From: Bolinopsis microptera
Taxonomy: Eukaryota; Ctenophora; Tentaculata; Lobata; Bolinopsidae
Assembly (NCBI RefSeq): GCF_026151205.1
Contig: NC_087072.1
Location: 1,103,375 to 1,167,374, forward strand
DNA length: 64,000 nt
Direction: 5' to 3'
Positions 1 through 42,909 of the stretch are shown here, piece after piece (position 1 is the stretch's first letter; each line of letters begins with the position of its first letter). Under the pieces are notes generated by a model, which saw only the letters and a list, made by a program, of their open reading frames with translations, was not told the origin of the DNA and searched no databases. Both the position numbers and the translations under genes were made by a program.

Positions 1-3000
1 AGACCCAAGTTAAATATTGATAATATCCTTGACATGATAAAGAAAGTGACTGAAGTCACGACCAAGCATGATGAAAAGGAAGAAGCTAAAGCTCCAGTAC
101 CTGATGGGAAAGATGCCCCTAATGACTACATATTCGCTGCCGGACAGAGCAAGAGAATTCATGCGGAGCTGTTCAAAGTAATAGACAGTTCTGATGTTGT
201 GGTCCAGGTTTTAGATGCCAGAGATCCAATGGTTAGTTCTCTATTTAATCAGATATATCAGTCGGTACTTCTTTTGTAGGACCACCTACGGGGGAGAAAC
301 TGGGGCTTTTTTAGGATGGTATTTTAGAATTCCATATTGCGATCTCTTAAAATCCCTACTTTACTTTTCAGACTAACATTTTATTTCTTCTTAGTTAATA
401 TTCTGGCCTAATCAGGGCACGAGGTCAAAGTACATCGAAAGACATTTGAAGGAGGAGAAGTCCCACAAACATCTCATATTTATCCTAAACAAGTGTGACT
501 TGGTCCCAACATGGGTAACAAAAGGGTGGCTGGTGCACCTGTCGGCAGAATACCCTACCTTAGCTTTCCACGCCTCTGTTACAAATCCTTTGGAAAAGGT
601 ATTGTCCGTTAATTATCGATGTTTATACATTGTACATTTATACATTATACATGTTTATGTGACATTTTAATATATTGAGTGTTATAGTTAGAAAGCATAA
701 CTACGTAGGATATCTACTAAATAGCCACAATGTGTGCATAATAACATATAACATAATGTTATAGGTGCCCTGATTAATCTGCTGCGTCAGTTTGCTAGAC
801 TACACTCGGACAAGAAGCAGATAAGTGTTGGGTTTATTGGATACCCTAACGTCGGCAAAAGCTCCATCATTAACACCCTCAAACATAAAAAGGTTATGGT
901 TTACTTTGATGTCTACAAAATGCTGACTTTCATGTAAATTGTATAGCACTGTGGAAGTATCAAGCTACATTGATAATCAAAATGCACATCCTCTTGTGTA
1001 TACAATATACATGTGTAAGATCGCACTAATTAGGAAGATTGCTTGCTTATGATTTTATTACTTAATAGTACAGAGTTTGTTTACTGGTTAACCTAGGTCA
1101 ACTGAAATAAATCAGACATTCTCCAACCAATAACCCCCTCTCTCTCTCAGTGTTGTAAAGTAGCCCCACAACCAATAACCCCCTCTCTCTCAGTGTTGTA
1201 AAGTAGCCCCACAACCAATAACCCCCTCTCTCAGTGTTGTAAAGTAGCCCCACAACCAATAACCCCCTCTCTCAGTGTTGTAAAGTTGCCCCACAACCAA
1301 TAACCCCCTCTCTCAGTGTTGTAAAGTAGCCCCACAACCAATAACCCCCTCTCTCTCAGTGTTGTAAAGTAGCCCCACAACCAATAACCCCTCTCTCTCA
1401 GTGTTGTAAAGTAGCCCCACAACCAATAACCCCCTCTCTCTCAGTGTTGTAAAGTAGCCCCACTAGCGGGAGAGACGAAGGTTTGGCAGTACGTTTCCTT
1501 GTTCCGTCGTGTTAACCTCATAGATTGCCCCGGAGTTGTGAGCAACACCTCCGATTCTAACGCTGACATGATGTGCAAGGTAAGGATTGTGCCTCTAACG
1601 CTGACATGATGTGCAAGGTACGGATTGTGCCACTAACGCTGACATGATGTGCAAGGTAAGGATTGTGCCTCTAACGCTGACATGATGTGCAAGATAAGGA
1701 TTGTGCCTCTAACGCTGACATGATGTGCAAGGTAAGGATTGTGCCTCTAACGCTGACATGATGTGCAAGGTAAGGATTGTGCCTCTAACGCTGACATGAT
1801 GTGCAAGGTAAGGATTGTGCCTCTAACGCTGACATGATGTGCAAGGTAAGGATTGTGCCTCTAACGCTGACATGATGTGCAAGGTAAGGATTGTGCCTCT
1901 AACGCTGACATGATGTGCAAGGTAAGGATTGTGCCTCTAACGCTGACATGATGTGCAAGGTAAGGATTGTGCCTCTAACGCTGACATGATGTGCAAGGTA
2001 AGGATTGTGCCTCTAACGCTGACATGATGTGCAAGGTAAGGATTGTGCCTCTAACGCTGATATGATGTGCAAGGTAAGGATTGTGCCTCTAACGCTGACA
2101 TGATGTGCAAGGTAAGGATTGTGCCTCTAACGCTGACATGATGTGCAAGGTAAGGATTGTGCCTCTAACGCTGACATGATGTGCAAGGTAAGGATTGTGC
2201 CTCTAACGCTGACATGATGTGCAAGGTAAGGATTGTGCCTCTAACGCTGACATGATGTGCAAGGTAAGGATTGTGCCTCTAACGCTGACATGATGTGCAA
2301 GGTAAGGATTGTGCCTCTAACGCTGACATGATGTGCAAGGTAAGGATTGTGCCTCTAACGCTGACATGATGTGCAAGGTAAGGATTGTGCCTCTAACGCT
2401 GACATGATGTGCAAGGTAAGGATTGTGCCTCTAACGCTGACATGATGTGCAAGGTAAGGATTGTGCCTCTAACGCTGACATGATGTGCAAGGTAAGGATT
2501 GTGCCTCTAACGCTGACATGATGTGCAAGGTAAGGATTGTGCCTCTATTACGCTGACATGATGTGCAAGGTAAGGATTGTGCCTCTAACGCTGACATGAT
2601 GTGCAAGGTAAGGATTGTGCCTCTAACGCTGACATGATGTGCAAGGTAAGGATTGTGCCTCTAACGCTGACATGATGTGCAAGGTAAGGATTGTGCCTCT
2701 AACGCTGACATGATGTGCAAGGTAAGGATTGTGCCTCTAACGCTGACATGATGTGCAAGGTAAGGATTGTGCCTCTAACGCTGACATGATGTGCAAGGTA
2801 AGGATTGTGCCTCTAACGCTGACATGATGTGCAAGGTAAGGATTGTGCCTCTAACGCTGACATGATGTGCAAGGTAAGGATTGTGCCTCTAACGCTGACA
2901 TGATGTGCAAGGTAAGGATTGTGCCTCTAACGCTGACATGATGTGCAAGGTAAGGATTGTGCCTCTAACGCTGACATGATGTGCAAGGTAAGGATTGTGC

Positions 3001-6000
3001 CTCTAACGCTGACATGATGTGCAAGGTAAGGATTGTGCCTCTAACGCTGACATGATGTGCAAGGTAAGGATTGTGCCTCTAACGCTGACATGATGTGCAA
3101 GGTAAGGATTGTGCCTCTAACGCTGACATGATGTGCAAGGTAAGGATTGTGCCTCTAACGCTGACATGATGTGCAAGGTAAGGATTGTGCCTCTAACGCT
3201 GACATGATGTGCAAGGTAAGGATTGTGCCTCTAACGCTGACATGATGTGCAAGGTAAGGATTGTGCCTCTAACGCTGACATGATGTGCAAGGTAAGGATT
3301 GTGCCTCTAACGCTGACATGATGTGCAAGGTAAGGATTGTGCCTCTAACGCTGACATGATGTGCAAGGTAAGGATTGTGCCTCTAACGCTGACATGATGT
3401 GCAAGGTAAGGATTGTGCCTCTAACGCTGACATGATGTGCAAGGTAAGGATTGTGCCTCTAACGCTGACATGATGTGCAAGGTAAGGATTGTGCCTCTAA
3501 CGCTGACATGATGTGCAAGGTAAGGATTGTGCCTCTATTACGCTGACATGATGTGCAAGGTAAGGATTGTGCCTCTAACGCTGACATGATGTGCAAGGTA
3601 AGGATTGTGCCTCTAACGCTGACATGATGTGCAAGGTAAGGATTGTGCCTCTAACGCTGACATGATGTGCAAGGTAAGGATTGTGCCTCTAACGCTGACA
3701 TGATGTGCAAGGTAAGGATTGTGCCTCTAACGCTGACATGATGTGCAAGGTAAGGATTGTGCCTCTAACGCTGACATGATGTGCAAGGTAAGGATTGTGC
3801 CTCTAACGCTGACATGATGTGCAAGGTAAGGATTGTGCCTCTAACGCTGACATGATGTGCAAGGTAAGGATTGTGCCTCTAACGCTGACATGATGTGCAA
3901 GGTAAGGATTGTGCCTCTAACGCTGACATGATGTGCAAGGTAAGGATTGTGCCTCTAACGCTGACATGATGTGCAAGGTAAGGATTGTGCCTCTAACGCT
4001 GACATGATGTGCAAGGTAAGGATTGTGCCTCTAACGCTGACATGATGTGCAAGGTAAGGATTGTGCCTCTAACGCTGACATGATGTGCAAGGTAAGGATT
4101 GTGCCTCTAACGCTGACATGATGTGCAAGGTAAGGATTGTGCCTCTAACGCTGACATGATGTGCAAGGTAAGGATTGTGCCTCTAACGCTGACATGATGT
4201 GCAAGGTAAGGATTGTGCCTCTAACGCTGACATGATGTGCAAGGTAAGGATTGTGCCTCTAACGCTGACATGATGTGCAAGGTAAGGATTGTGCCTCTAA
4301 CGCTGACATGATGTGCAAGGTAAGGATTGTGCCTCTAACGCTGACATGATGTGCAAGGTAAGGATTGTGCCTCTAACGCTGACATGATGTGCAAGGTAAG
4401 GATTGTGCCTCTAACGCTGACATGATGTGCAAGGTAAGGATTGTGCCTCTAACGCTGACATGATGTGCAAGGTAAGGATTGTGCCTCTAACGCTGACATG
4501 ATGTGCAAGGTAAGGATTGTGCCTCTAACGCTGACATGATGTGCAAGGTAAGGATTGTGCCTCTAACGCTGACATGATGTGCAAGGTAAGGATTGTGCCT
4601 CTAACGCTGACATGATGTGCAAGGTAAGGATTGTGCCTCTAACGCTGACATGATGTGCAAGGTAAGGATTGTGCCTCTAACGCTGACATGATGTGCAAGG
4701 TAAGGATTGTGCCTCTAACGCTGACATGATGTGCAAGGTAAGGATTGTGCCTCTAACGCTGACATGATGTGCAAGGTAAGGATTGTGCCTCTAACGCTGA
4801 CATGATGTGCAAGGTAAGGATTGTGCCTCTAACGCTGACATGATGTGCAAGGTAAGGATTGTGCCTCTAACGCTGACATGATGTGCAAGGTAAGGATTGT
4901 GCCTCTAACGCTGACATGATGTGCAAGGTAAGGATTGTGCCTCTAACGCTGACATGATGTGCAAGGTAAGGATTGTGCCTCTAACGCTGACATGATGTGC
5001 AAGGTAAGGATTGTGCCTCTAACGCTGACATGATGTGCAAGGTAAGGATTGTGCCTCTAACGCTGACATGATGTGCAAGGTAAGGATTGTGCCTCTAACG
5101 CTGACATGATGTGCAAGGTAAGGATTGTGCCTCTAACGCTGACATGATGTGCAAGGTAAGGATTGTGCCTCTAACGCTGACATGATGTGCAAGGTAAGGA
5201 TTGTGCCTCTAACGCTGACATGATGTGCAAGGTAAGGATTGTGCCTCTAACGCTGACATGATGTGCAAGGTAAGGATTGTGCCTCTAACGCTGACATGAT
5301 GTGCAAGGTAAGGATTGTGCCTCTAACGCTGACATGATGTGCAAGGTAAGGATTGTGCCTCTAACGCTGACATGATGTGCAAGGTAAGGATTGTGCCTCT
5401 AACGCTGACATGATGTGCAAGGTAAGGATTGTGCCTCTAACGCTGACATGATGTGCAAGGTAAGGATTGTGCCTCTAACGCTGACATGATGTGCAAGGTA
5501 AGGATTGTGCCTCTAACGCTGACATGATGTGCAAGGTAAGGATTGTGCCTCTAACGCTGACATGATGTGCAAGGTAAGGATTGTGCCTCTAACGCTGACA
5601 TGATGTGCAAGGTAAGGATTGTGCCTCTAACGCTGACATGATGTGCAAGGTAAGGATTGTGCCTCTAACGCTGACATGATGTGCAAGGTAAGGATTGTGC
5701 CTCTAACGCTGACATGATGTGCAAGGTAAGGATTGTGCCTCTAACGCTGACATGATGTGCAAGGTAAGGATTGTGCCTCTAACGCTGACATGATGTGCAA
5801 GGTAAGGATTGTGCCTCTAACGCTGACATGATGTGCAAGGTAAGGATTGTGCCTCTAACGCTGACATGATGTGCAAGGTAAGGATTGTGCCTCTAACGCT
5901 GACATGATGTGCAAGGTAAGGATTGTGCCTCTAACGCTGACATGATGTGCAAGGTAAGGATTGTGCCTCTAACGCTGACATGATGTGCAAGGTAAGGATT

Positions 6001-9000
6001 GTGCCTCTAACGCTGACATGATGTGCAAGGTAAGGATTGTGCCTCTAACGCTGACATGATGTGCAAGGTAAGGATTGTGCCTCTAACGCTGACATGATGT
6101 GCAAGGTAAGGATTGTGCCTCTAACGCTGACATGATGTGCAAGGTAAGGATTGTGCCTCTAACGCTGACATGATGTGCAAAGTAAGGATTGTGCCTCTAA
6201 CTCTGACATGATGTGCAAGGTAATGGTTGTGCCTCTAACGCTGACATGATGTGCAAGGTAAGGATTGTGCCTCTAACGCTGACATGATGTGCAAGGTAAG
6301 GATTGTGCCTCTAACGCTGACATGATGTGCAAGGTAAGGATTGTGCCTCTAACGCTGACATGATGTGCAAAGTAAGGATTGTGCCTCTAACTCTGACATG
6401 ATGTGCAAGGTAAGGATTGTGCCTCTAACGCTGACATGATGTGCAAGGTAAGGATTGTGCCTCTAACGCTGACATGATGTGCAAGGTAAGGATCGTGCCT
6501 CTAACGCTGACATGATGTGCAAGGTAAGGGTTGTGCCTCTAACGCTGACATGATGTGCAAGGTAAGGATTGTGCCTCTAACGCTGACATGATGTGCAAGG
6601 TAAGGATCGTGCCTCTAACGCTGACATGATGTGCAAGGTAAGGATCGTGCCTCTAACGCTGACATGATGTGCAAGGTAAGGATTGTGCCTCTAACGCTGA
6701 CATGATGTGCAAGGTAAGGATTGTGCCTCTAACACTGACATGATGTGCAAGGTAAGGATTGTGCCTCTAACGCTGACATGATGTGCAAGGTAAGGATTGT
6801 GCCTCTAACGCTGACATGATGTGCAAGGTAAGGATTGTGCCTCTAACGCTGACATGATGTGCAAGGTAAGGATTGTGCCTCTAACGCTGACATGATGTGC
6901 AAGGTAAGGGTTGTGCCTCTAACGCTGACATGATGTGCAAGGTAAGGATTGTGCCTCTAACGCTGACATGATGTGCAAGGTAAGGATTGTGCCTCTAACG
7001 CTGACATGATGTGCAAGGTAAGGATTGTGCGTCTAACGCTGACATGATGTGCAAGGTAAGGATTGTGCCTCTAACGCTGACATGATGTGCAAGGTAAGGA
7101 TTGTGCCTCTAACGCTGACATGATGTGCAAGGTAAGGATTGTGCCTCTAACGCTGACATGATGTGCAAGGTAAGGATTGTGCCTCTAACGCTGACATGAT
7201 GTGCAAGGTAAAGATTGTGCCTCTAACGCTGACATGATGTGCAAGGTAAGGATTGTGCCTCTAACGCTGACATGATGTGCAAGGTAAGGATTGTGCCTCT
7301 AACACTGACATGATGTGCAAGGTAAGGATTGTGCCTCTAACGCTGACATGATGTGCAAGGTAAGGATTGTGCCTATAACGCTGACATGATGTGCAAGGTA
7401 AGGATTGTGCCTCTAACGCTGACATGATGTGCAAGGTAAGGATTGTGCCTCTAACGCTGACATGATGTGCAAGGTAAGGATTGTGCCTCTAACGCTGACA
7501 TGATGTGCAAGGTAAGGATTGTGCCTCTAACGCTGACATGATGTGCAAGGTAAGGATTGTGCCTCTAACGCTGACATGATGTGCAAGGTAAGGATTGTGC
7601 CTCTAACGCTGACATGATGTGCAAGGTAAGGATTGTGCCTCTAACGCTGACATGATGTGCAAGGTAAGGATCGTGCCTCTAACGCTGACATGATGTGCAA
7701 GGTAAGGATTGTGCCTCTAACGCTGACATGATGTGCAAGGTAAGGATTGTGCCTCTAACGCTGACATGATGTGCAAGGTAAGGATTGTGCCGCACTTTTC
7801 ATCAAATTCATTTGCCTTTGTTTTTAGATCTTATAAATACAGAATGAATAGGAGGTAGTTTGTGTCTCCCCTATTATAATGAGATTTTGTCTCGCCACTC
7901 ATTGAGCCGAACAATTGCTAAATTGTTTCGGATTTGTTCACTACATTGCTTCCCGACTCCGCCAATTTGAAATCAAAATATCGAAAGTGTTGAATTCAAT
8001 TTATTGAGAGCTATTAACTGTCGCGACAGGAAAAGCACTTAAACCTATAAATTATTGTAACACCATGGCGTCACAACTAGCATTTAGCCATTTTTACAGT
8101 AGCTGTTATGAAAAGTTCTTTCTAGAGAAATTTTATTATAAATTCTGACTTTCAGGGAGTTGTTCGGTTAGAATATGTGACAAACGCAGCTGATTACATC
8201 GAAACAATCATGGAGAAAATAAAACCCAAGTATCTCACACAAGCGTACAAGGTGAGTTTAAGTTATAACATAAAACTTTGTTAACATAACAAATTTACAT
8301 CCAACAGTCAGCAGATTAAGAAACGAAATAATACATATTCGATTTTTTTAAATCGCTGTTCAGTGTTCAAACATCTAATCGTCTGAAAAAATATAACTAA
8401 ACATTAATTATTTCCCTTCATTAAGGTATATATTCTAAGCTACACAAAATTAATATAATAAAACAAATTTCTAAAATCTGAATCCTTCCCAGTCAATCAA
8501 TCTGTTTCGTCAGTATTCGGCTTAATCACTGTCTACAATCTACATTAAAATATTGTGCTGCAAGATACTAGTTTATAAACAAATTGACGGTCAATGTTTA
8601 GCGTTATGAATAACGCTAAACATTGATCGTCAACTTGTTCTAGTTAAATAAATAGCACTGATATTAATCTGTCGAGGAAGCAACTCGAAACTTAAGTACT
8701 AGCTGGTTTGGGAACACTTAAAACCTCTTTAAGCCTCACTCCCCCTGGTTTGGGAACACTTAAAACCTCTTTAAGCCTCACTCCCCCTGGTTTGGGAACA
8801 CTTAAAACCTCTTTAAGCCTCACTCCCCCTGGTTTGGGAACACTTAAACCTCTTTAAGCCTCACTCCCCCTGGTTTGGGAACATTTAAAACCTCTTTAAG
8901 CCTCACTCCCCCTGGTTTGGGAACACTTAAAACCTCTTTAAGCCTCACTCCCCCACCCGGCTGAGGACCCTTATTACGATACACTACAACAGCCGGAATG

Positions 9001-12000
9001 GGACGTGTAGGAGTCTTGCTAGACTCGCTCCTCCAAAATGTCGCTCCTAAATTAATGCTATCTCGGCCACAAAACAACTTGTTTATGATAAAAATTCTAA
9101 GTTTCTCATTTCTAGCAAAGTATACAACCGGATTGATGGCAGAGTTTAGTGGTATACACAAGCTGTAAACGAAAATGTAGATATCGTAGTTGTGAACTGA
9201 TCCGTACAGACTGCCAGGTCCAAGGGCGTACTCCCAAATGTGAACCACGCAGAAGGGGATGTTAAAGAGACAGAAGATCATGGCAAGGATCAGGACTGTT
9301 GTAGAGGCGTGCACATTCCTTCTCCTCTTACCGTTTGTGTTCAAATCTCCTCTTCCAGAAGCCAATAGACAGCAGATAGATATGACACAGGATAGGATGA
9401 TGAGGGTGGTAAGGGTGGTGGGCAGTACAGCCAGCTCTAGCCAGTAGTATTTGTAGTGGATTGTTTCTGAGAATGCCAAGCTGACAATGATGATCTCGTA
9501 GAGGAAGAACAGTCCGCCCAGGATCATGATGTGACTCACTGTTACTCTGAGAAAGGGTTTCACCAGAGACAGCGTCCTGATGACGGTCATCATGCACGTC
9601 ACAAACACTGTCATCTTCATCGTGATGTCACTTGTTGCTATGAGAGCCTGGGGTAGGGCGTTTATTTAGAATGTATCACGTGTAGCTATTTAAAAGGACG
9701 AATAATATATTTGCACTGTAAGTTTTGGTGGCATCACACTTGCACTGATCGACTTTACCTGGAAAGAAAGAGGAGGGGCTGGCTGGACGGTGTCCAGGAA
9801 CCAGAAGGAGTGAACCCAAGTAGCCAGACTGGTGACACAGACCAGCATGTCGACCAGGTTGAGTGAGATAAAGAGGACAGTGCCAGGAGAGGGAGACTGT
9901 CTCTGGAGGAAGAAGGTGAGAGACAGGGTGTTGGTGAAGAGTCCCAGGATAACTATAGTTGCTGCCAGGTAGCTGGTAATGCTGATGTAGTCTGACATGT
10001 TGCTGGGTGGGAGAGATGTTTAGTAACTCAAATCACTTTATCTTGTGATAGTTGGGGGGGGGGAGTAGTAAAAATATATTTAAGAAATTATTAAGATTCT
10101 AGTCTCGATAGGGGGAGGGCGAGAGTAGTAAAAATATATTTAAGAAATTATTAAGATTCTAGTCTCGATATTGAAAATGGTAATAACGCCAGCGCAACCT
10201 CCTGCAATCGATACTACTGTACGGTTACTTCCCCGAATATAAATATTAAATATTGTAGCACCTGGATCACAACTTGTCGCTGGCAAAAACCATTTATTTA
10301 AGTTATGCGTTCGAACAGAAACGCTAAATAGTCATTTATAACGATATAACCGATCAAAGGCTTAAAATTTACAGTTCCACGCGCCAGTTGAAGAATGGAA
10401 GTGGTTTAACAAAGTAGGGTTAGTCTCTTAAAGTCTTAAATTTTAGTGCATGCAGTCTAGGATAGCCCCCCCCCCCTCCCGATGCGCAGTAGGCGACCCA
10501 TCCCTCCACCCACCCCACCGCCCCCACCCCCCCCCCCCCCTAGTGCCCTGCCCCCTGGCTACCAACTCGTATTATTGGTTGCATAACCCTTGCATAACCG
10601 GAACTGAGCATGGTTATACGGTTATATTACCACATATTATCCCAATCTCCCTTAAGTTATAACCAACTTTGCAAAACCTACAGTTTCACAGAAAATCATG
10701 TCTATGTTAGGCATAAATGGACCATAGTTTATTAGATATGGCCCATCCAGACATCCCAGACCAATAAATGATAATAAGCTGACTACGGCTGAGTCCTCCT
10801 AGAATGGGATATGTTTCTTTGATCTCAGTCTACAAGTGGTTATCAAAGTTCAAATAGCTAAATAGACACGGCGCAATTTGATGTTGTATAACGGTCAAAA
10901 TGAGTTGAAGAAATTCTGAATCCTGTAAGCCAAAACGGCCCCCTTATACGATCATTAGGCGCTGAACCAGTAAAGAACAAACACTACTACACTCTAGTAT
11001 AATTATATAATACTACTGTACAGGAACAAACACTAGTATAATATAGAACAAACACTACTACATAATATAATTATATAATACTACTATACAGGAACAAACA
11101 CTCTAGTATGATATAGAACAAACCTCTTATCTCATTTTCAGTCGTTAACACCATTAACAAAAGAAAACTTAGTCACCTTGAATCCAGACTATAGTGAAGT
11201 TAAACTTAATAAATAATTGTTGACCAGGTGTTAATCTTAGTATTATATTTAAATAATAATTGGGAGTCGAGTACTTCACAACGATAATCCGCCTCCCCAC
11301 TAGACATATAATAGTATATAATATATATATTGAGGTTTTAATAAATCAGGTGTTCAAGTTTTGCGAGGGGCCTTGTGAAGGAAATGGTGCACACTTCCGG
11401 CGCTACAAGGAATCCCTCACAAGGTTATTTAAGAGGAAATGTATGCAGTTAAACTGGCTAATTCAGCACTTAACTTCAGTGAGGCGTACAATTAATAGCG
11501 ATAGAGTAAGTAAAAAGAGAATATACCCAGCTAGCCTCATTGAATATTGGGAGTTGTTAAAACTCATGGAACTAAGGTATTGGACATTGATATGAATTAT
11601 ATGGGATAATGTAATTGGAATAATGTAATATTATCTGGAAGAAGATTAAGTTGTATAATATTTTAAACCAAGGATAGACATTAGACACAGTCTCATTGAC
11701 CACTAGCTATTTGACTATATTACTGAGGGAAGTTGGGACAAACTCTAAAGAGGAACTGCGAACCCTGATGCGAGACAGGGATATAAGGAGGGGGTTATCC
11801 GGGGTAGATCAGACTTAGTTCCGACCTAGTAGTAATACTACTGGATTACACCAACCCACCAGATTACACCAACCCACCAGATTACACCAACCCACCAGAT
11901 TACACATGTAAGCGGTTCAAATCCTCAATCATTAGCAAAATAACTACATACCACTTTTTGAAATCAGCAGCCGTATTTTACAATATAATTTACTAGAAGC

Positions 12001-15000
12001 TGCAAACAGATGACGCTCTGTCGTTTTAACAATTGAAAACTGCTCGGATATTTGGTGTAATCTGGTTGGCTAATCGTTGCTATGCGCCGTTGCTATGCGC
12101 CGTTATCAATTTGCCCCACCGGCCACCAGTTTTCTAGAGGATCTAGACAAATACTTTTAAACAAAGCTTATATCCATTGTGTAACGTAAATGTGGTATGT
12201 TTCATGGAATTAATGACACGTTAGTTTGGACACCACCACGCTGTTACCAATATAGGTAACGTCTATATTATATTAACAATATAACAATATATAGCGTCTA
12301 GCCACTATTGTAGAATTAAAGTAAGTTACAATGTCTACAATAATTATAATAGCGCCTGGTCGGCGACAAGCAATTAGAAGGTAGGCACAACTCACAAGGC
12401 ATAAGGGAGCCTCTATTATTAACAGCGTGGGCCGTGGGGGTCATTAATTCCATGAAACATACCACATTTACATTTACGCTACACAATGGATATAAGCTTT
12501 GTTTACAAGTATTTGTCTAGATCCTCTAGAAAACTGGTGAGTGGTGGCCACCTGCAGAGCTACCATCAATATGATTATAACGAAAAACAAACATTGGGGG
12601 GGGGGGCTGACCATATTAAAGTATATTAAAGTATATCCCCGGCCCTAAATCGGGAAAAACCTACATTTTAATATACTTTAATATACTTTAATATACCCTA
12701 AATTAGTCGAGCTATATTCTTCGTTTAGATTTGCAAGAAAAGCCTGTTTTTGGACTATTACATGAATTTACATCCAGTTTGGTCAAAAAATGGCTGAGTT
12801 ATGAGCTTTAAATCATATGCCCATATTTGGGCATACGCACCAAATTTGAAAGCTTTTGCCCAAAATTCGATCAAATTTCAATATTTGTTAATGAGACTAT
12901 CTTTATGTGAAAGATATAGCTCAATATCTGTTGAATAGTGGATACTAAGTAAAAAGACCTCCATGAACAAAATTGCACATAAAATATCTCGGTTTGTACT
13001 TTGTAAAATTGAAATCAGTTTTCAATATTTTTGCCTCCAAAAAGACACATAATTTCCAGCGACAGATTATAAATTGCCGGATTAAGAGATGTTGTCATTA
13101 AAGAAATGTAACTATGGCAAATTTTAAAGTTAAAAATAAAATCTGTTAACGGTTCATGATCTTCAAAGCAAGTCACTTGAAGCATTCGTTTGATACAGTG
13201 GCTTTAAAGAAGGGTATGAAATGGTGTGCGTCTCCAATAAACAGATAAATGCTGTAGGAGTTGTCTGTCTAGCTAGCCGCTATATGATATTATGCGGCGT
13301 AATGCTATTGGTTCATTTTGTTAACGGTTTTAATCGGTTGCAGTGCAACCTTCACAAGCAATCATTGTTGCGCAACCTTCCCACGAGAAGAAAAACTAAG
13401 AAGAAATAAGAATGCGATATTTAGGTTACCTGGTTACCAGATAGCAGAGGGCTAAAACAGAAAGGACGATGACGTCATGGATCCTTAGCGTATTCAGAGA
13501 TAGGTCACGCTTCCTCATGCTCACACTCTACAAAACCCTGGTGAGAAGCAAACTCGAATACTGCTGCCCGGTGTGGAACCCGGACAAGATCAGCGATATA
13601 GAAGCTATTGAAAGCATACAACGACACTATAACACTCGTCGAATCAGTGGCTGCCAGAACCTTGATTACTGGGAACGCCTGCAGAACCTGAATCTTCTCT
13701 CGTTACAGAGACGCAGAGAACGATACATCATAATCCATACGTATGGAAGATGATGAATGGACTAGCTCCGAACGACATCAGCATGCAGTTCAAGGAAAAA
13801 AGGCACAATTCTCAATCTCGACCCATTATGAAAACTCTTTTGGAGTAAAAGCAGCCAAACTATGGAACCTGCTCCCCAAGGAAGTTAACACAATCCAAGT
13901 CTTGGAAACTTTCAAATCCTCCCTTGCTAAATTCTTGAAAGGCTTCCCGGATACCCGCCCACAAAAGGGTATACCGCCATCACAAATAACTCTTTTTGGA
14001 ATGGACTCTACAAAAAGATCTAAGCCAGGAGTGATTGGAGGCTAGGAGGTATAGTATCAGGTACTTGATACTGTTGTCCAGAAGCGATCCCTGCCGAACC
14101 TACCTAAAGTAACCCTAAGTAAGTAGATATTTGATAACCCGTTAGGATCTTTAGAAAAACTGTCTGAAAGGATATATTAATCTCCTAGCATAAAACGGGG
14201 TAATCTTCACTCAGCCCTTGTCCGAATGCTTTTTACAGTGCTAAGTGGCTCGTGTCATACTGTGGATATTATATTATTATATTATTATGTCTCAACCTAG
14301 AACATGATCACTAGCATGACAAAGCCTTTATTGAAGGTGTGTTAGCAATGAGTGCCACCTTGATAATAATATAACTGACACCCCGATAATATAACTGACA
14401 CCGAGCTATAAATCTACTTACTAATACTTAGGCCGGCTGGCGAATACTCTAGGAGAGATTAGCAGATTCTCCTTCTGGATCAATGCTGGTTTGTTTAAAT
14501 ACTACTTGTTATACAAGACCACAATTCAGCTAAGAATTTCCATTACGGCAGTAGGGTTGCCATTATCGGTACAAAATTTTTTATCGCGATAATCGATAAT
14601 TTGGCACCGTTTGGCGGTTGGGGTCTAGTTTGTTGGTCAACTGCTATCTCGAAACCAAGTTTCACAAAAAATCAGGGTGAACCACCCACCCCCACCCCCC
14701 TGTAAGGACATGTTTTATTCATAGGACAGAGAGGAGCGCGATTGGATATCCAATTATCATTAAATATTAAGGACATGTTTTATTCATAGGACAGAGAGGA
14801 CCGCGATTGGATATCCAATTATCATTAAACATTATATACTTGCTTTAGGTACTTGGTATAATAGATATGATAATGATATTGGCTTGAGCTTCCATCATTT
14901 CTGTTGGACCAGGAGCTTCCTATTATCATGTTAAATTGAGTTGAATAATTAACCTTATTAAAGATACAGTGGGACGGTGGAATATGGTATTCAGTACGGA

Positions 15001-16573
15001 GTCTGCTCAGTAGTTTATAAATGAGCTTTAAAGAAAGATAATCTAATTTCTATCTACAAACAAACAGATAAGAATGATATGATAGAAGTATGTTTAATTT
15101 TAAACGACAGTAATAGTGTTACGTCCGACAGTGAACAGCAAAGTTAACAATCACGCTACTATTTGTAGGTTTCAGCTTTAATTTGCGATAGATATAACTT
15201 GACCCACAGATTTGTTAACTTCAATATGACAGTATGAAAATCGATAAATCCCAAAATAAATCGCGATACAGAACGAGATTATGGTTAGGTATGAAACTCC
15301 GTTATAAATACTGCAACTCCCTGTAGTTTAGAGTGAGGTTATACTAATACAGAATACTGCACTGGAAGCTATCGCACGTGGAACTAAACACTTCCGTGAC
15401 ACGCGTTAATCGCTGACACGAGCACCATTTCATACATCCATGTAATAATAATCACAAATATTGTCTCGAAGCAAGCCTGCAATTAAATTTGAATCCTGCA
15501 GTTAACACCATGACAGTTCCCCCACGTAGCTTCGTGTGACATGGGTCACGTGTGACATGGGTCACGTGTGACATGGGTCACGTGTGACATGGGTCAACTG
15601 CATGTGTTATTTAATTAATGGCAGTAGTAGTAGTAGTGGCAGCAGGATGACTATCACAAGGGTAGAGAGCGAATTATAAGTTATAATAAGTGCTATATTG
15701 ACATTTTAAATATATTGAGTGGAGGTCAAACCACCGCTTTTTTATTCCCATCGAAGATTGGTTACACTTTCAATTAATCAATATAAAAGGATATATTCGA
15801 TTGAAAACGCTAATATCTTATTTTCTTAACACATTTAAAACCCAAGGTGGAGAGTTGGACGAACGGAGAGGACTTTTTAGCTCAAATGTGCAAGTTAACC
15901 GGAAAATTACTGAAAAAGGGGGAGCCAGATCTGAACACCTGCGCTAGAATGGTATTCCAGGACTTCCAACGAGGCAAATTACCATACTTCAACGTTCCGC
16001 CAAACAGTTCCAGGGTTTGTTATTTCTTAATTTTCTAATGCCTGGTTTTACTACTTTCCTTAGCATTATTCATTTTTAACCATTTCTTGTTCATACTTTC
16101 ATAGTTCAGACGCCTTCTTTACGCGAAGAGAGCACTGTTATTTCAATCGAGAGTTTTTGCTAGCCTTGTTTTAATTCAGCTTTAAAACACTATTTAATAC
16201 GGTTTAATATAAACATACAAATTACAGTTTTAATGTAGAACATGATTGGTTTCTATAACATATAGTGGTATATATATAGTGTATAACTTCCGAACATTGT
16301 TATCAGAAGTCAACAGACGAAGCAATGCCGACAGCGAAAGATATGTCATTTATAGACGAGGCTAATAATGAACAATTAAAAGAAGATAACCCTGAAGATA
16401 TGAAAGACATCTCAAACGAAACAACAGAAGATGCAGCTTTAACAGAAGATAACACACCAGATGATAATAATTGTGGTGAAATATCAGACGGTAATCAATT
16501 AGATACTAGTCTTCCTGAGAGGACTCCCGAGCAAGCTAAGAAACGGAGGAGAATTGTTCCTGATGATGATTGA
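1..16573 (+). CDS. GNL2: GNL2/NOG2-like nucleolar GTPase, 3' seven exons (5' end outside window)
   Basis: GNL2/NOG2 proteins are circularly permuted GTPases (YlqF/YawG class) that act in nucleolar/nuclear assembly of the 60S ribosomal subunit. Exons read: 1-231, 416-598, 765-892, 1445-1579, 8156-8251, 15847-16014, 16307-16573. Exon 1 carries [18 protein letters not shown] and VLDARDPM, exon 2 the G4 motif NKCDLVPTW, exon 3 the P-loop GYPNVGKSS, and exon 4 [13 protein letters not shown] and the G3 motif DCPG. This G4-G1-G3 order is diagnostic of the permuted family. Exon 6 has the conserved [12 protein letters not shown] block. The last exon is acidic and ends in a basic KKRRR stretch before a TGA. 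The C-terminal tail looks short next to the human protein. Exons 2 and 3 do not join in frame: one base appears to be missing near 589-592, in the NP-x-GKG motif. That is either an assembly error or a real lesion. Both junctions of exon 4 are tandemly amplified. Intron 5 (8252-15846) contains an antisense GPCR. Confidence 0.9.
1124..1464 (+). repeat. 41-44 bp tandem repeat that copies the exon 4 splice acceptor 8 times
   Basis: Each unit contains CAACCAATAACCCC, a CT-rich tract, CAG and then TGTTGTAAAGTAGCCCCAC. The last part is the true 5' end of GNL2 exon 4 (which continues into CTAGCGGGAGAG). Acceptor AGs end at 1150, 1193, 1234, 1275, 1316, 1359, 1401 and 1444. Only the last one reads on into the coding exon. 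Use of an upstream one would read through the next unit into TAA. Copies differ in CT number and by one substitution (AAAGTTGCC near 1285). Confidence 0.95.
1556..7793 (+). repeat. 38-bp minisatellite, about 164 copies of the GNL2 exon 4 donor junction
   Basis: The unit is the last 22-24 bases of exon 4 (ending GACATGATGTGCAAG) followed by GTAAGGATTGTGCCTCT. The first donor is at 1580 and the last at 7778. The spacing is 38 bp, with two units carrying a 2-bp gain (CTCTATTACG, near 2547 and 3537), which gives 163 intervals. The first ~120 units are nearly identical; substitutions such as GATCG, AACACTG, AAGTAAGG and TAATGG cluster after ~6180. Because 38 is not a multiple of 3, and each unit read on from exon 4 reaches TGA, only the first donor keeps the protein open. 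Confidence 0.97.
8703..8953 (-). repeat. 42-bp tandem repeat forming the GPCR C-terminal tail and 3' flank
   Basis: There are six copies of a 42-bp unit starting CTGGTTTGGGAACACTTAAA on the plus strand, at 8703, 8745, 8787, 8829, 8870 and 8912. On the minus strand the unit encodes a 14-residue repeat ([14 protein letters not shown]). The copy at 8829 lacks one A (CACTTAAACC rather than CACTTAAAACC). That deletion shifts the frame into a stop, so the protein ends inside the array at 8844. Confidence 0.93.
8844..9998 (-). CDS. Class A (rhodopsin-like) G protein-coupled receptor, two exons, nested antisense in a GNL2 intron
   Basis: Two minus-strand exons, 9998-9759 and 9647-8844, join in phase 0 across a 111-bp GT-AG intron and encode 347 aa. 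Exon 1 holds a short N terminus, TM1 and TM2 ([16 protein letters not shown]). Exon 2 begins at TM3 with [11 protein letters not shown] in the DRY position, followed by TM4-TM6 and a TM7 with [17 protein letters not shown], a clear NPxxY motif. The basic GKRRRN segment is the third intracellular loop. The start is the ATG at 9998; the apparent ORF running on past 9759 is intron. The tail is built from a 14-residue repeat and ends at a frameshift-derived stop. The ligand cannot be inferred; the SRT/IRT...PF variant of DRY is common in invertebrate orphan receptors. Confidence 0.85.
10055..10170. repeat. Two-copy direct repeat (~71 bp spacing)
   Basis: The segment GAGTAGTAAAAATATATTTA and the following AAGAAATTATTAAGATTC occur twice, around 10062-10111 and 10122-10170. 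They are separated by different G-rich linkers. No coding signal is seen. The neighbouring stretch 10171-10980, still in the GNL2 intron, shows only C-rich low complexity (10466-10540). Confidence 0.8.
10975..11125. repeat. Imperfect tandem repeats rich in ACAAACACTA and TATAATTATATAATACTACT
   Basis: Three or four imperfect copies of a module with GAACAAACACTACTAC followed by an AT-rich stretch. This is a non-coding intronic repeat. Confidence 0.7.
11260..11595 (+). other. Unassigned open frame of 111 codons
   Basis: An uninterrupted frame with a moderately basic composition ([42 protein letters not shown]). It lies in the GNL2 intron just upstream of a retrotransposon remnant. I do not recognise it. 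It has no splice or domain support and may be TE-derived or chance. Confidence 0.2.
11712..11826 (+). mobile_element. Short fragment of a non-LTR retrotransposon 3' coding end
   Basis: The sequence matches, at base level, the C-terminal block of the minus-strand element at 17116-17343 ([22 protein letters not shown] versus [22 protein letters not shown]). Only about 115 bp is present, so this is a dead remnant. The flanks show AATATTATCTGG AT-rich DNA on one side and a short tandem repeat on the other. Confidence 0.65.
11843..11906. repeat. ACACCAACCCACCAGATT tandem repeat, 3-4 copies
   Basis: An 18-bp unit repeated between 11843 and 11906 in the GNL2 intron. No function is visible. Confidence 0.8.
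12118..12556. mobile_element. Foldback/MITE-like element with ~100 bp terminal inverted repeats
   Basis: The left arm runs from GGCCACCAGTTTTCTAGAGG through ATCTAGACAAATACTTTTAA to TTCATGGAATTAATGACAC (about 12119-12222). It is repeated in inverse orientation at about 12441-12552 (TCATTAATTCCATGAAACA ... CTAGAAAACTGGTGAGTGG). The ~220 bp centre has no ORF. It is a non-autonomous inverted-repeat element by structure; the superfamily is not determined. Confidence 0.82.
12613..12704. repeat. Small palindrome of ATTAAAGTAT units
   Basis: TATTAAAGTATATTAAAGTA at 12614-12637 faces ATACTTTAATATACTTTAAT at 12669-12698, separated by ~30 bp. This may be a stem-loop or a tiny foldback. 12705-13440 holds AT-rich DNA with no gene seen. 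Confidence 0.7.
13446..14045 (+). mobile_element. CR1/jockey-like LINE, 5'-truncated and frameshifted 3' end
   Basis: The frame from 13446 reads [65 protein letters not shown]. This is the conserved region C-terminal to the reverse transcriptase core of CR1-type LINEs. The reading then moves frame twice: [11 protein letters not shown] is in another frame at ~13741, and [17 protein letters not shown] is in a third at ~13840-13890. The polymerase core is absent. It is a dead copy inserted in the GNL2 intron in sense orientation. Confidence 0.85.
14704..14834. repeat. 67-bp tandem duplication
   Basis: A unit starting AAGGACATGTTTTATTCATA occurs at 14704 and again at 14769, with only a couple of substitutions (GAGCGCG versus GACCGCG). 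14046-14700 and 14835-15530 are intronic with no gene seen. Confidence 0.9.
15537..15597. promoter_or_regulatory. Array of four GTGACATGGGTCAC units, each junction a CACGTG E-box
   Basis: The 17-bp unit GTGACATGGGTCACGTG is repeated four times. The joints create the palindrome GTCACGTGTGAC with a core CACGTG, the consensus for bHLH-ZIP factors. The sequence shows the sites; any regulatory role is inference. Confidence 0.45.
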
Positions 16574-17115
16574 TAGAGTGGTGTTCCCTTTTTATTTTGC
16601 TTCATATCGCCAGCAAAGGCGCCTTTTAAAGTCTATTTTATGTTTTACCGTAGGGTTTTTAAGAGTTTTTGTCCGGAAACTTGACCGGGGGTAATTTATT
16701 ATCGACTGTAATCGTTCATTTTAAAGAGCATTTTAATTTAAAACTAAATTGCTGCGTTTTAGTATCATCAAATTAAATTACAAGTAAAATGTTTGACGTT
16801 CCCACTTGCAACCTACAGTTACACTGAAACCATGGGACGCGACCAAAGTGCGTCTGAAAATCCGGAGGCTAAACTATAAAATGAGTTACATTGTCTTATA
16901 ATATGTAATACTAATGTTCCTTAAGTACGGGAACTGAGACAAAGTGACTTCATCACTTCAACTCGAAGCATTCTCCAAATTAAAATGTGTACCATTATAC
17001 CATATTCAATATTTAAGACTGATAATAATATCAAATTTGCCATATTGGATATATTCAACTACAAATGTAGTGGAAGATTGAGATTAACCATTAACTGGAT
17101 ATACTTCTACTACTA

Positions 17116-17343
17116 CTATGTTGGAGCTAAGTCCGATCTACGCCAGATAACCCCCTTCATGCATATATCCCTGTCCCGCATCAGGGTTCGCAGTTCCTCT
17201 TTAGAGTTTGTCCCAACTTCCTTCAGTAACATAGACAAGTAGCTTTGTCTTGGTCGGCCTTGCTGTGCTCTACCGTGCGTAGGTTCCCATAAGACTAAAT
17301 CACTGGCAAGTAGCTCAGGATGTCTGATGCAGTGTCCCGCCAT
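17116..17343 (-). mobile_element. Non-LTR retrotransposon ORF2 C-terminal remnant
   Basis: The minus frame reads AGHCIRHPELLASDLVLWEP, THGRAQQGRPRQSYLSMLLK and [19 protein letters not shown]. This matches the well-known GHCxRHPE...VLWEPTHGRxxxGRP C-terminal region of LINE polyproteins in marine invertebrates. Only ~75 codons survive. It lies just downstream of the GNL2 3' end, in antisense orientation to it. A second piece lies at 11712-11826. Confidence 0.8.
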
Positions 17344-17515
17344 TTGTAATTTCCTAACTTCGTAACTGGATATAGGGTATTATAATCATCACGATAACTA
17401 GCATGCAGCAGCACTATAGCGGTATCCACAGACTATTAATTAGAATCTTGCGATCTACTTATTCAGGGGTGATTTTAGGGATTCGTGAATCCATCGATAG
17501 AAAAATGCGACTGTT

Positions 17516-17687
17516 AGGGGTCGTTCACATATTACGTTCTCTTTTTTAGAACATTTTTAACCCCCCCCCCCCCCTCCGTAATCAGTTTTACATATAGCTA
17601 TTGTAGTGTGTCAAAATTACACTAGCGTAATCATTCGGAACCCCCCCTCCCCCCTCAGCTGATAACGTAATATGTGAACGACCCCTT
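17516..17687. mobile_element. MITE with AGGGGTCGTTCACATATTAC termini
   Basis: The left end is AGGGGTCGTTCACATATTAC and the right end its inverted match (GTAATATGTGAACGACCCCT); the element is 172 bp. The interior has runs of C and the recurring phrase CCGTAATCA. It has no coding capacity. A related longer copy is at 19777-20536. Confidence 0.85.
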
Positions 17688-18361
17688 ATGTCAATTAGCT
17701 GGTCGAGGGCTGCCGTACAATGGTGACGGGCTTACCTGGGGACCTCAGGCTATTATGTTCATAAACATAATAGCCGAATAGAGATTAGGCGGAATGACAG
17801 GCTGAGCGCGGCCCAGTAACTGTTCACGTGACATGGACGACCAATCAAATAGGTAATACAGTATGTAACAGGTAATACAGTATACACCTTGTCTATATGG
17901 TCTAACTCACCAAGTCAACATACATGACACATGAGATTGAGAACTAAGCAATTGAAACGTAACACATCTCACCAAATCTAGATCAAGTAACCACCATTGC
18001 ATGGGAAGATGATAAATCAATTAAACCAATAAAAATTGCTTAAATAGATAAGACAGGTGCTGCGATTTTCGTGTTTTTATCTGTATAAGAAATAGGGGCG
18101 TGGTCCACGGCCAGGGCGTGGTCACAGAGTCTTGAAAATATGTTTCAACGAAATGCCATCATCACATTTATATTAGAGTAGAAAGTCTCAAAGCACAGAA
18201 ATGACGCTATCATGTTAAAAAATGCGATGTTCCTTATTTTACCTGTATAAGAAACGCGCTATAAAAATGGGCGTGACCCAAGGCGACATTATCCGAAACA
18301 CTAGAGTCAAAAAGATTTGTTTGCTTGTTCCTGACCCTATTGCGCCCTGTTACTGTCACCA

Positions 18362-18502
18362 AGATGCAGTTAGACCTAACCAGTTAGGCCTAACGTAGAG
18401 TTAGAAAGCGGCGCGCGCTACTTCGAAGAAATTTAGACGAGTAACATCCGTCAAGCCTAACTCTGCGTTAGGTCTAACTAGTTAGACCTAACTGCATCTT
18501 GA
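18362..18502. repeat. Foldback with AGATGCAGTTAGACCTAAC ends, nested in the 17732-18859 element
   Basis: AGATGCAGTTAGACCTAACC at 18362 pairs with GTTAGACCTAACTGCATCT at 18484-18502, and a second inner pair (TTAGGCCTAACGTAGAGTTA / AACTCTGCGTTAGG) brackets the loop. The loop holds one copy of the CTTCGAAGAAATTTAGACGA module. Confidence 0.82.
18411..18453 (+). repeat. Dispersed GC-rich module family 1, copy a
   Basis: The module reads GCGCGCGCTACTTCGAAGAA and then ATTTAGACGAGTAACATCCG with TCA. Related copies are at 18983-19112 (split), 51813-51881 (inverted) and 56202-56290 (inverted, diverged). Confidence 0.8.
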
Positions 18503-18890
18503 GGACAGTTAGTGTTAATCACGAAATCCTATTTTTTGAGCTTCACACTTCAGATCAAATACAATTGTCCATATTATGTGATATGTATATTATAATTAGT
18601 TAATTAATAGTTCTTAAGTAATATTGGCAAATCGATTGACCCAGTTCAACGGGTGATACTCTGTACTCGTAAAATATTTGTTCCAAATATATACAAGCAC
18701 AAGACTGTCGACGAGTCCAACTCGGCGCGCGTCTCATGGTAAGTTATAAACCTTGAAATCTACAAAACTCTTATTGGGCCGCGCTCAGCCTGTCATTCCG
18801 CTTAATCTCTATTCGTTTATTTTCGTTTATGAACATAATAGCCTGAGGTCCCCAGGTAACAGGTAACAATACCTTTTTATATATCACCTC

Positions 18891-18982
18891 CACAGGGAGA
18901 CTAAAGTGCAAAGAAACTGCTGCTGTCGCGCGCGCGCCATTTGCATCAGTTTCTTTGCACTTTAGTTTACTAGCTCCCTGTG
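18891..18982. mobile_element. 92-bp hairpin element with CACAGGGAG termini
   Basis: CACAGGGAGACTAAAGTGCA and AAGAAACTG in the left arm pair with CAGTTTCTTTGCACTTTAG and CTCCCTGTG in the right arm, around a short CG-rich loop. It is the same family as the larger copy at 20223-20470. Confidence 0.85.
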
Positions 18983-19112
18983 CCTTGACCATTGTTAATG
19001 GTTTGGCCCGGCGCGCGCTACTTTGTAGCACTTGCCATCTGGCCGAAATAACATTTCGAGAAGAAAGCGACGCGCGCTATTTCGAAGAAATTTAGACGAG
19101 TAACATCCGTCA
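18983..19112 (+). repeat. Dispersed module family 1, copy b (split by ~48 bp)
   Basis: TTGACCATTGTTAATGGTTT and GGCCCGGCGCGCGCTACTT at 18985-19023 are followed, after an insertion, by CGCGCGCTATTTCGAAGAAA with the TAGACGAGTAACATCCGTCA end at 19071-19112. Compared with the inverted copy at 51813, it defines a ~68-bp element with TGACCATT and CCGTCA ends. Confidence 0.7.
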
Positions 19113-19189
19113 ACCTGTGCCTGGCTTCGTGACCGGTGGGTCCAGTGACCCCGGCCCCATTGTCGAGCGCGAGCGAAAGCCCCAATATT

Positions 19190-19289
19190 GATTCACATTT
19201 CACGATGTCAATTTTTCGCATCTCGCCGATCTGCATTGTGGTTGCGAGAAGATGCGCGGCGCGGCCCGGTGGTGCATCGCGCTACAATT
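19190..19289 (+). repeat. Dispersed GC-rich module family 2, copy 1
   Basis: About 100 bp with the landmarks CACGATGTCAAT, CGCATCTCGCCGATCTG, TTGCGAGAAG and GGTGCATCGCGCTACAA. The same order recurs at 20004-20123 and 48291-48382. Confidence 0.8.
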
Positions 19290-20003
19290 TTCACGTTTAC
19301 TTTAAAACCAGAACTAACTCAAATCCTAAAGCATAAACAGCTCAAATATTTTTTAACAAACTGTCACACGACGTGCGCGCGTTCGACAAAAATGGTTATT
19401 TACTCATAACTCGTCAAAAAATTATTTTCATGCTATGTAGTATGTAATTATTGTATCACGTCGTGACTTGCTCTATTCAGAGCCCTTGTGCTTGCAGTAG
19501 TGCGCGCCCGCCTCTTGACTTGTGAAACAAGCGCGCCCGCAGTGGCGCGCCCGCACATGGTTAGGTGAACGTCGTGACCCCTATTGGCGTGTCACTAAGT
19601 AGCGTTTCTACGACACAGGGGGAGCCGCGCACTCGTGCGCGGCGGGTCATACAACGTAAGACATTGTAATCAGTAATAGGTTTTATTCTAAATCAGCTTA
19701 AAAAATACATTGGTATATAAGCTTAAATTAACCTTATTAAGCTTACTTTCACAATCCCACAGCTTAGGTGTCCATGTCGTTCACATATTATATAACGTAA
19801 TCAATATTTTGGCAATTTTTACCCTCCTCCGTAATCAACCGTAATCAAGACCAAACCCCCCTAAATTACGTAATCAAGGTTTGACCCCCCGTAATCAAGA
19901 CCCAACCCCCTATATTACGTAATCACGGATTAATGAATGAAATAATCTCAAAGCACTTACTAAACGAAAATTGGTTTAAAAAACGAAATTTTTGATTACT
20001 TGA

Positions 20004-20123
20004 TTGACGATGTCAACCCTTTCTAGCTCGGCGCGACCCAGTGGTGCATCTCGCCGATCTACGGAAGGTTGCGAGAAGCATTATTGGATGCGCGCGCGAC
20101 CCAGTAGTGCATCGCGCTACAAT
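20004..20123 (+). repeat. Dispersed GC-rich module family 2, copy 2
   Basis: Contains TTGACGATGTCAACCCTTTC, a partial duplication of GCGACCCAGTGGTGCATC, CTCGCCGATCTACGG, GGTTGCGAGAAGC and the GCATCGCGCTACAAT end. Confidence 0.75.
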
Positions 20124-20222
20124 TTGATTACATAATTAACGAAAATTGTCCAATTGGTATTTTGAAAATCGGTAAAAAATAAAAATTTTGATTACGTTAT
20201 CAACGACCAAAACCCCCCCCCC

Positions 20223-20470
20223 ACAGGAGGAGCAAAGTGCAAAGAAACTTCTACTAACTGCTACTAACTGCTACTAACTGCTACTAACTGCCACTAACTG
20301 CCACTAACTGCCACTAACTGCCACTAACTGCTGCACACGGCGCGCGAATGCGTGGGCGCGAATGCGTGGGCGCGATTGCAGCAGTTAGTGGCAGTTAGTG
20401 GTAGTTAGTGGCAGTTAGTAGCAGTTAGTAGCGGTTAGTAGCAGTTTCTTTGCACTTTGCTCCTCCTGTG
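20223..20470. mobile_element. 248-bp hairpin element whose two arms carry mirrored 10-bp tandem repeats
   Basis: The ends are CACAGGAGGAGCAAAGTGCA and its inverse TGCACTTTGCTCCTCCTGTG. Inside the left arm are four CTACTAACTG and then four CCACTAACTG units. The right arm, read from the outside inward, has about three CTACTAAC-type and then three CCACTAAC-type units. The unit types are therefore in mirror order around a CG-rich loop (CACACGGCGCGCGAATGCG). Confidence 0.9.
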
Positions 20471-21268
20471 CCCCGTAATCAACCGTAAGCATTTAAAAAC
20501 CCCCCTCGGCTGATTACGTAATATGTGAACGACCCCTTACTCAATACTCATAATATATAAAACAAAAACGTATAAGCATGTACACAGAACGTCAAAATCT
20601 AATATGTAATAGTGCCCTCAGCTCTGGCACCCCGCGACTCAAGTGTCAAGGTTTTACTGGTTAAGTAAAAGTAGTTTGATTATTTATAAACGTTGCATAC
20701 CTGGCCTCGGCCGGTGCGAGAAAAGTGAAAGTATACAACGCAAATGCGTGTATAAAAAATAAAAATTTGCTGCAACTGATTTATAAGCACCACTAATAAT
20801 TAAATGCACTGTTTTACTTGATACAAAGCATTCAGAATAATTCATGGCTCATGCCATAATGTAAAAAAAGTAACCCACCGCAATTTTATTTTTGTAAGAC
20901 CCAGGACCCGTAATATAAGTCTCGCAAAGGTATATTATACTACTTCTTTTTTCTTCTATCAGTTGTGATGGAATTGTAATGAACAAAATCCATATATAAT
21001 AATTTATGATATGTTTGATTTCTTGTTATTGTATGTCATTCAAATTTGGTAGACGGCCCCAACGTTAATGTGGCTCTTGCTATGTGTTGGTTCAGCCGAA
21101 TTAATTAGTATGTAATCAAGATCATTTTACTCTTTTAGTTAGTTGTCTTCCGGCCAAACATTAAGCAACTTATATTGCAGTACCATTTATCAATTAGTAT
21201 ATCTAAATATTGTAATTTTGTATGGCTGAAATGTAACGCTTGATTTGTATATATACAAATTTTTTTTA

Positions 21269-21330
21269 ATTTGAAAATTCAATTAATCATCATATATATA
21301 TATGATAATTAATTGAATTTTCAAATAAAA
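21269..21330. repeat. ~62-bp near-perfect AT palindrome
   Basis: AATTTGAAAATTCAATTAAT at ~21269 is mirrored by ATTAATTGAATTTTCAAAT ending near 21326, around (AT)n. It may be a tiny foldback. No gene is seen in 20537-21519. Confidence 0.85.
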
Positions 21331-22484: not shown

Positions 22485-22635
22485 AGGAAGTCTAAGTTTG
22501 ACCCATATCTGTAATATCTGAAATTTTGATATGCTGACATAAATTACACGAGTTGTGTGTTACTTCTCGCCCACCCTGTATACAATTTTCCCTTCTTTTT
22601 CTACCTCAGAGTATGCTTTCAGATCATAGCATGAA

Positions 22636-42909
<20,274 letters not shown>

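Follow-up and report, generated by a model that had tools for sequence, protein, structure and literature searches.

The analysed window, a stretch of 64,000 nucleotides of the Bolinopsis microptera genome (C1:1103375-1167374; genome size 264.65 Mb), carries two genes in which tandem arrays include or adjoin exon-intron boundaries (Table 1). The upstream gene is presumably GNL2, encoding a nucleolar GTPase, a name based on protein similarity. The downstream gene encodes a phospholipase C of the gamma type (PLC-gamma): the frame of its last exon contains the Pfam domains PI-PLC-Y and C2, and its best PDB matches are PLC-gamma-1/2.

Table 1. Genes, splice-site arrays and related repeats in the window
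Feature	Position	Strand	Remark	Basis
GNL2, 5' end missing	1..16573	+	7 exons in window	splice models and translation
GNL2 exons	1-231, 416-598, 765-892, 1445-1579, 8156-8251, 15847-16014, 16307-16573	+	last end counted by hand from translation	
~41-bp x8.0 array	1124..1463	+	over GNL2 exon 4 acceptor	TRF
38-bp x164 array	1556..7791	+	over GNL2 exon 4 donor	TRF
PLC-gamma	22633..42321	+	22 exons, stop codon 42319-42321	splice models and translation
11-bp x10.9 array	23909..24028	+	from nt 7 of PLC-gamma intron 5	TRF
Exon 7 acceptor segment (~70 nt), two copies	24408..24715	+	copies at 24408-24477 and 24646-24715 (PLC-gamma)	ends counted by hand
27-bp x214 array	25713..31488	+	deep in PLC-gamma intron 8, away from junctions	TRF
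TAGT tetranucleotide array	31712..32713	+	from nt 2 of PLC-gamma intron 9, donor CAG/gtagttag	TRF
48-bp x2.0 duplication	36426..36521	+	PLC-gamma exon 11 donor	TRF
66-bp x11.1 array	37397..38129	+	PLC-gamma exon 15 donor; unit of 51 exonic and 15 intronic nt	TRF
8-bp array	39021..39779	+	from nt 10 of PLC-gamma intron 18	TRF
20-bp x19.9 array	40358..40755	+	from nt 4 of PLC-gamma intron 20	TRF
48-bp x2.1 duplication	40916..41014	+	PLC-gamma exon 21 donor	TRF

Both ends of GNL2 exon 4 are covered by arrays. The acceptor unit contains the polypyrimidine tract, the AG, and the first 19 nt of the exon, and the donor unit joins 24 nt from the end of the exon to 14 nt from the start of intron 4, an intron of 6576 nt that is composed mostly of this 164-copy array. 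The donor GT is retained in 163 of the 164 units, and 141 units are identical. Most of the 23 variant copies (18) fall in copies 2-4 or 122-161. Two-copy variant blocks recur in the array (copies 26-27 and 52-53; copies 122-123 and 127-128, which are nearly the same), a pattern expected from block duplication, and thus the array appears to have been duplicated internally in blocks. The eight arrays of the 7.6-kb intron 5, none of which is at a junction, were omitted from the preliminary description of this DNA. On the minus strand, the same intron contains a rhodopsin-type GPCR (positions 8703-10000; 7tm_1, under the curated cut-off), whose coding sequence ends, at the C-terminus, in an in-frame array of 42 bp x6 (14 residues per unit). 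GNL2 exon 2 has a single occurrence in the genome. Between exons 2 and 3 (599-764), splicing at the evident GT-AG pair shifts the conserved frame by one base, possibly because of a one-base assembly error; given this offset in the exon model, the integrity of GNL2 is only partly supported.

In the PLC-gamma splice model, which uses the outer sites only, all 21 introns are GT-AG with consistent phases, and the frame of 1263 aa is free of stops. For exon 22, an acceptor at 41065 was rejected, as it breaks the frame, and the acceptor at 41126 fits. TRF and the splice models bear out the earlier statement that arrays are built from real junctions, namely the acceptor and donor of GNL2 exon 4 and the donors of PLC-gamma exons 11, 15, and 21. 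At exon 11, the outer donor defines an intron of 151 nt, and the inner copy would give one of 103 nt. Six arrays or duplications across junctions had been counted before. Five of them stand as junction-crossing TRF arrays; the remaining one, at the exon 7 acceptor, consists of two identical copies that are ~168 nt apart with a 10-bp x15.6 array (24487-24642) in between, and thus differs from a simple head-to-tail duplication. Arrays do start within ten bases of the donors of introns 5, 9, 18, and 20, as had been noted. The 27-bp array of intron 8 lies 336 nt from the donor and 101 nt from the acceptor.

Reading through the first extra copy leads to a stop in all six junction repeats (four donors and two acceptors), in agreement with the preliminary description; the stops at the four duplicated donors are TGA, TAA, TGA, and TAG. 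We discarded the idea that the stops of the inner copies point to selection: those of exons 11 and 15 are not made by the repeat, because the donor consensus supplies them in phase 2 (CC/GTAA and CC/GTGA). The frame kept by the exon-proximal site in all six cases had likewise been taken as a sign of selection. This argument does not hold, since a tandem duplication spanning a junction leaves the outermost junction intact, so that frame keeping by the outer site is automatic and follows from geometry.

The positions of the arrays were compared with a null model in which the ancestral unit of each array was placed randomly in the collapsed intron. The set included 27 introns and 27 non-homopolymer arrays, the exon 7 repeat being outside it, as TRF does not call this repeat as one array. 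Before the addition of GNL2 introns 5 and 6, 11 of 25 introns were array-free, with lengths of 94-254 nt. Because the introns are short and units of 38-66 bp easily reach an edge, straddling is expected often: five of the 27 arrays straddle a junction (four donors and one acceptor) versus 4.08 expected (P=0.37). When arrays either straddling a donor or lying within 10 nt of it are counted, the donor side has 8 arrays versus 2.90 expected (P=0.002), or versus 3.55 expected with the last 35 intron nucleotides barred (P=0.0075); both comparisons are post hoc, and their P values are only nominal because the window was picked for the pattern. On the acceptor side, one array of the 27 was observed versus 2.90 expected.

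Independent junctions were collected from myosin and kinesin genes elsewhere in the genome. The myosin sample covers nine genes or gene parts and includes 62 domain-supported exons from 62 of 73 matches, the other 11 being beyond the stretches examined. The kinesin sample includes 17 exons selected by score ranking from the best 33 of 83 matches; the 16 matches left out are two long single-exon matches, two near-identical copies, ten matches with internal stops, whose removal is a possible source of sample bias, and two further exons of a gene that was already represented. Exon edges were assigned to the best-scoring GT or AG near the domain match, and individual edges may be wrong.

The 62 myosin exons have two donor-associated and two acceptor-associated arrays, all of them short. 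On the donor side, these are one abutting array and one weak straddling array, the latter in myosin D (19 bp x2.2, reaching 5 nt into the exon). In one myosin gene (L022, 2714-3188), two adjacent predicted exons match the same part of the domain (HMM 105-167 and 102-167) and are perhaps a duplicated, alternatively used exon. Several arrays were found at kinesin junctions: a clean donor duplication of 53 bp (L035), an acceptor unit of 49 bp with five copies within the stretch examined (L038), a 13-bp array starting on the first intron base (L046), and a TTAA run from intron nt 2 (L044). The kinesin cases of junction duplication, on chromosomes C2, C5, and C12, show that the pattern recurs outside the window; also borne out is the earlier view that the duplicated part comes to lie within the intron. 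The C12 case is outside the pooled counts, as it was chosen because one of the stretches, L040, hinted at it. Here the donor of the exon ending in SLSELG occurs seven times in 421 bases and four times more near the far end of an intron of ~1.8 kb, so that a donor unit of ~32-36 bp is present at both intron ends (L040, positions 1-123 in gene orientation, and L050). This intron, seen from its two ends alone, may be a single array of tens of copies; it has the same architecture as GNL2 in another gene.

In the pooled myosin and kinesin samples, 3 of 158 junctions are straddled versus 1.9-2.0 expected (P about 0.3). Arrays abut 3 of 79 donors versus 0.33-0.61 expected (P 0.005-0.024); the lower expectation was obtained from the array density in a 200-kb block (0.39 per kb) and the higher one from the density in the myosin loci (0.70 per kb). 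For acceptors, with the same expectation, two of 79 have abutting arrays at a score of at least 50, and a third (L048) scores 46. Thus, the earlier claim that the pattern is more than coincidence is not supported for straddling, both in the window (5 versus 4.1) and at the independent junctions, and holds nominally for the donor side of the window.

In the 200-kb block (GC content 39.3%), 11.3% of array units contain a donor with a score of at least 5, versus 7.2% in control windows (n=53 units), so that the units are not clearly enriched in donor scores. A purpose-built gene finder predicted 53 putative introns with 30 arrays in this block, three of them straddling, and five introns in a reversed decoy. 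At least two of the three straddling arrays are in a retroelement-like frame, as judged from translation. Little weight was given to this gene finder, which recovered only 11 of the 27 known introns of the window with exact ends.

To cover the whole genome, we searched for pairs of the same motif at a spacing of 24-54 bp; the counts include matches whether or not they are at exon edges. Pairs of the donor motif AAGGTAAGT have 617 matches versus 4 for the backwards motif (4018 versus 3288 for the single motif), pairs of CAGGTGAGT have 383 versus 15, and pairs of CAGGTAAGT have 496 versus 2. A 25- to 250-fold donor excess, as obtained from backwards controls alone, was rejected, since the shuffled motifs demonstrate that controls vary widely: AGATGAAGT pairs have 114 matches and 224 backwards, and GATAGACGT pairs have 11 and 125, respectively. 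Each of the three donor motifs has more matches than any of the seven controls (rank test P=0.008), the controls being the three backwards donor motifs and both directions of AGATGAAGT and GATAGACGT; the shuffled motif GAATAGGTA and an acceptor pair are outside these counts. The match counts are inflated, as many of the matches listed come from a small number of very long arrays.

Loci were counted by hand among the matches listed and merged within 10 kb. The donor motifs have 26 loci among the matches listed, or about 0.087 per Mb, over stretches of 48, 55, and about 196 Mb, the last figure being approximate with regard to the length of C4. Five controls have about 42 loci in 1323 Mb, or about 0.032 per Mb; this number combines 20 loci and 1 locus among the matches listed (those of AGATGAAGT from 100 of its 114 matches) with the match numbers 4, 15, and 2 as upper bounds. 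The resulting donor to control ratio is about 2.7-2.8 (P about 1e-4) and leaves aside the controls with 224 and 125 matches, whose places were not listed. If these two controls are included on the assumption of 5.7 matches per locus, the ratio drops to about 1.6 (P about 0.03), and against AGATGAAGT alone, with at least 20 loci, it is 1.1-1.2 (P about 0.37). The genome-wide excess of donor duplications is modest and not yet specific, and amounts to roughly between 1.1- and 2.8-fold, according to the control used. Beyond the window, the proposed enrichment at junctions is not supported for straddling; for donors, it may amount to a modest, control-dependent excess at their edges and in motif pairs.

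The search also revealed a CAGGTGAGT-bearing array with a unit of ~46 bp and a length of at least 4.4 kb (C3:5823835-5828303) and large arrays akin to it at C1:428573-430927 and C2:21866164-21873062. Near the end of the window (59500-63700, minus strand), near-identical open frames, Ig-like by eye, recur every 1034-1041 bp, and single-motif matches suggest that this series continues past the window to about C1:1.174 Mb.

We conclude that the arrays are very probably minisatellites of the mirage type (a name given to boundary duplications in amphioxus, see below), i.e., ordinary tandem duplications whose unit happened to take in an exon-intron edge. In a genome that is rich in minisatellites and has many short introns, a chance tandem duplication, arising perhaps by slippage or unequal exchange, would at times catch a junction. 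Duplication of a donor would leave the 5'-most donor and its exon unchanged, and duplication of an acceptor would leave the 3'-most acceptor unchanged. As long as the outer site is used, the mature mRNA would be the same as before and each further copy would add to the intron; such duplications would be tolerated, and presumably neutral, because the outer site still yields the old mRNA. The arrays would later grow and shrink like other minisatellites and lengthen the intron. This chance account is favored by the PLC-gamma frame, which is open over 22 exons with outer sites only, by straddling near the null in both samples, and by the array units of the 200-kb block, which are not clearly enriched in donor scores. 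It is also favored by the recurring two-copy variant blocks of the 164-copy array, by the like architecture of the kinesin cases L035, L038, and L040/L050, and by the precedents of amphioxus and ABCA7 described below. What argues against it is the donor-side excess, seen in the window, in the 79 independent donors, and relative to most controls in the genome-wide motif pairs, along with the one-base offset in the GNL2 model.

The same excess would be explained if donors were preferred sites of tandem duplication, either due to their GT-rich, self-similar sequence or due to transcription or splicing at donors, with directed intron lengthening as the outcome. We consider such seeding conceivable but doubtful. 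It agrees with the 8 of 27 window arrays at donors, as opposed to 1 of 27 at acceptors, with the abutting arrays at 3 of 79 independent donors, and with the pair counts of AAGGTAAGT, CAGGTGAGT, and CAGGTAAGT above all seven controls and their higher locus density (0.087 versus 0.032 per Mb). However, the ratio to shuffled AGATGAAGT, whose reverse has 224 matches, is close to one, and the match counts owe much to the few very long arrays. Moreover, independent acceptors fare about like donors (two abutting arrays and L048), and the independent signal comes mostly from the 17 kinesin exons and little from the 62 myosin donors. Genic sequence may simply carry more arrays, as the densities in the myosin loci and the 200-kb block suggest, and the scarcity of acceptor arrays in the window may come from constraint on the branch point and the tract. 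A stronger version appears unlikely to us. In it, donors would be true duplication hot spots, intron length would come in large part from minisatellites that derive from donors and count tens to hundreds of units, and splicing would therefore have to choose the outermost donor even in cases in which an inner copy yields an intron of the usual short length.

A function of the duplicated sites, as regulated alternative donors, in U1 recruitment, or in the efficiency of long-intron splicing, is highly improbable. The GTs kept in nearly all GNL2 donor copies could be read in its favor, and repeated donors in IFI6 and ABCA7 reportedly see some use. On the other hand, the 141 identical copies imply that young age alone accounts for the kept GTs, and units with lengths such as 38, 41, and 49 bp cause frameshifts and run into stops. 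It is also hardly credible that the arrays are artefacts of assembly. Long arrays are hard to assemble, GNL2 has the one-base frame fault between exons 2 and 3, and a draft assembly of amphioxus is reported to have contained one misassembled mirage. Nevertheless, the 164-copy array contains scattered and block-duplicated variants, the outer junctions are exact, the units differ at many loci, and the pattern is found on several chromosomes.

The near-identical and well-placed donor and acceptor arrays provide natural competition experiments. In GNL2, only the first of 163 GT-bearing donors gives the frame, and therefore RNA could tell exon definition from intron definition, a question that here concerns an animal with many short introns. 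The junction arrays also illustrate how introns may lengthen while the protein stays the same.

The preliminary description had considered that the process might be undescribed. This is contradicted by amphioxus, where duplications of intron-exon boundaries in Adh3, the globins BflGb6 and BflGb9, and troponin C have been named mirages and an imperfect mirage is present in PGBD5 (PMC3087553, PMC3902484). In amphioxus, RT-PCR suggests that regular splicing is undisturbed. The Bolinopsis arrays share three structural features with mirages: (i) the unit crosses an exon-intron boundary in five TRF arrays of the window and in L035, L038, and L050, (ii) both donors and acceptors are duplicated (four donor arrays and one acceptor array, exon 7, and L038), and (iii) the extra units retain the GT or AG, as do 163 of 164 GNL2 donor copies. 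Two further traits of mirages, undisturbed splicing and copy numbers that are unstable between haplotypes or cells, may apply as well: the PLC-gamma frame is open with outer sites only, and the block duplications within the 164-copy array of this one assembly are indirect signs of instability. The amphioxus units likewise span donors or acceptors and carry GT or AG in many copies, whereas the present arrays belong to another phylum, reach 164 copies, occur several times in one gene pair, and are described here from DNA. Among the titles listed in a small literature search, none reports mirage-type structures in ctenophores; new here are their presence in the ctenophore Bolinopsis microptera and their recurrence in unrelated kinesin genes.

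Related structures are known from other systems. The VNTR in intron 18 of human ABCA7, whose unit begins with the two bases of the exon 18 donor GT, has alleles of up to about 427 units and 10.7 kb; retention of one unit is put at 2 +/- 1%, as read from the order of two isoform names, and skipping of exon 19 increases with VNTR length (PMC5954066). As in GNL2 and PLC-gamma, the array takes in an exon donor; in contrast, ABCA7 is one human locus that is polymorphic and has measured effects on splicing. The minisatellite of IFI6 (6-16/G1P3), described as having multiple splice donor sites (Turri 1995), similarly provides repeated donors, but there downstream units reportedly serve as donors. Variable repeats at exon-intron boundaries have also been recorded in human segmental duplications (PMC2812944). 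In the Rogers model of intron gain by tandem duplication, exemplified by ATP2A1 and by potato RdRp, where a duplication across an intron-exon boundary created a new intron (PMC4974935), splice signals are also contained in the duplication; there, a new intron arises, whereas GNL2 and PLC-gamma have introns that keep outer sites of their own and become longer. The present arrays thus widen the range of mirages, known from amphioxus and human, to include ctenophores.
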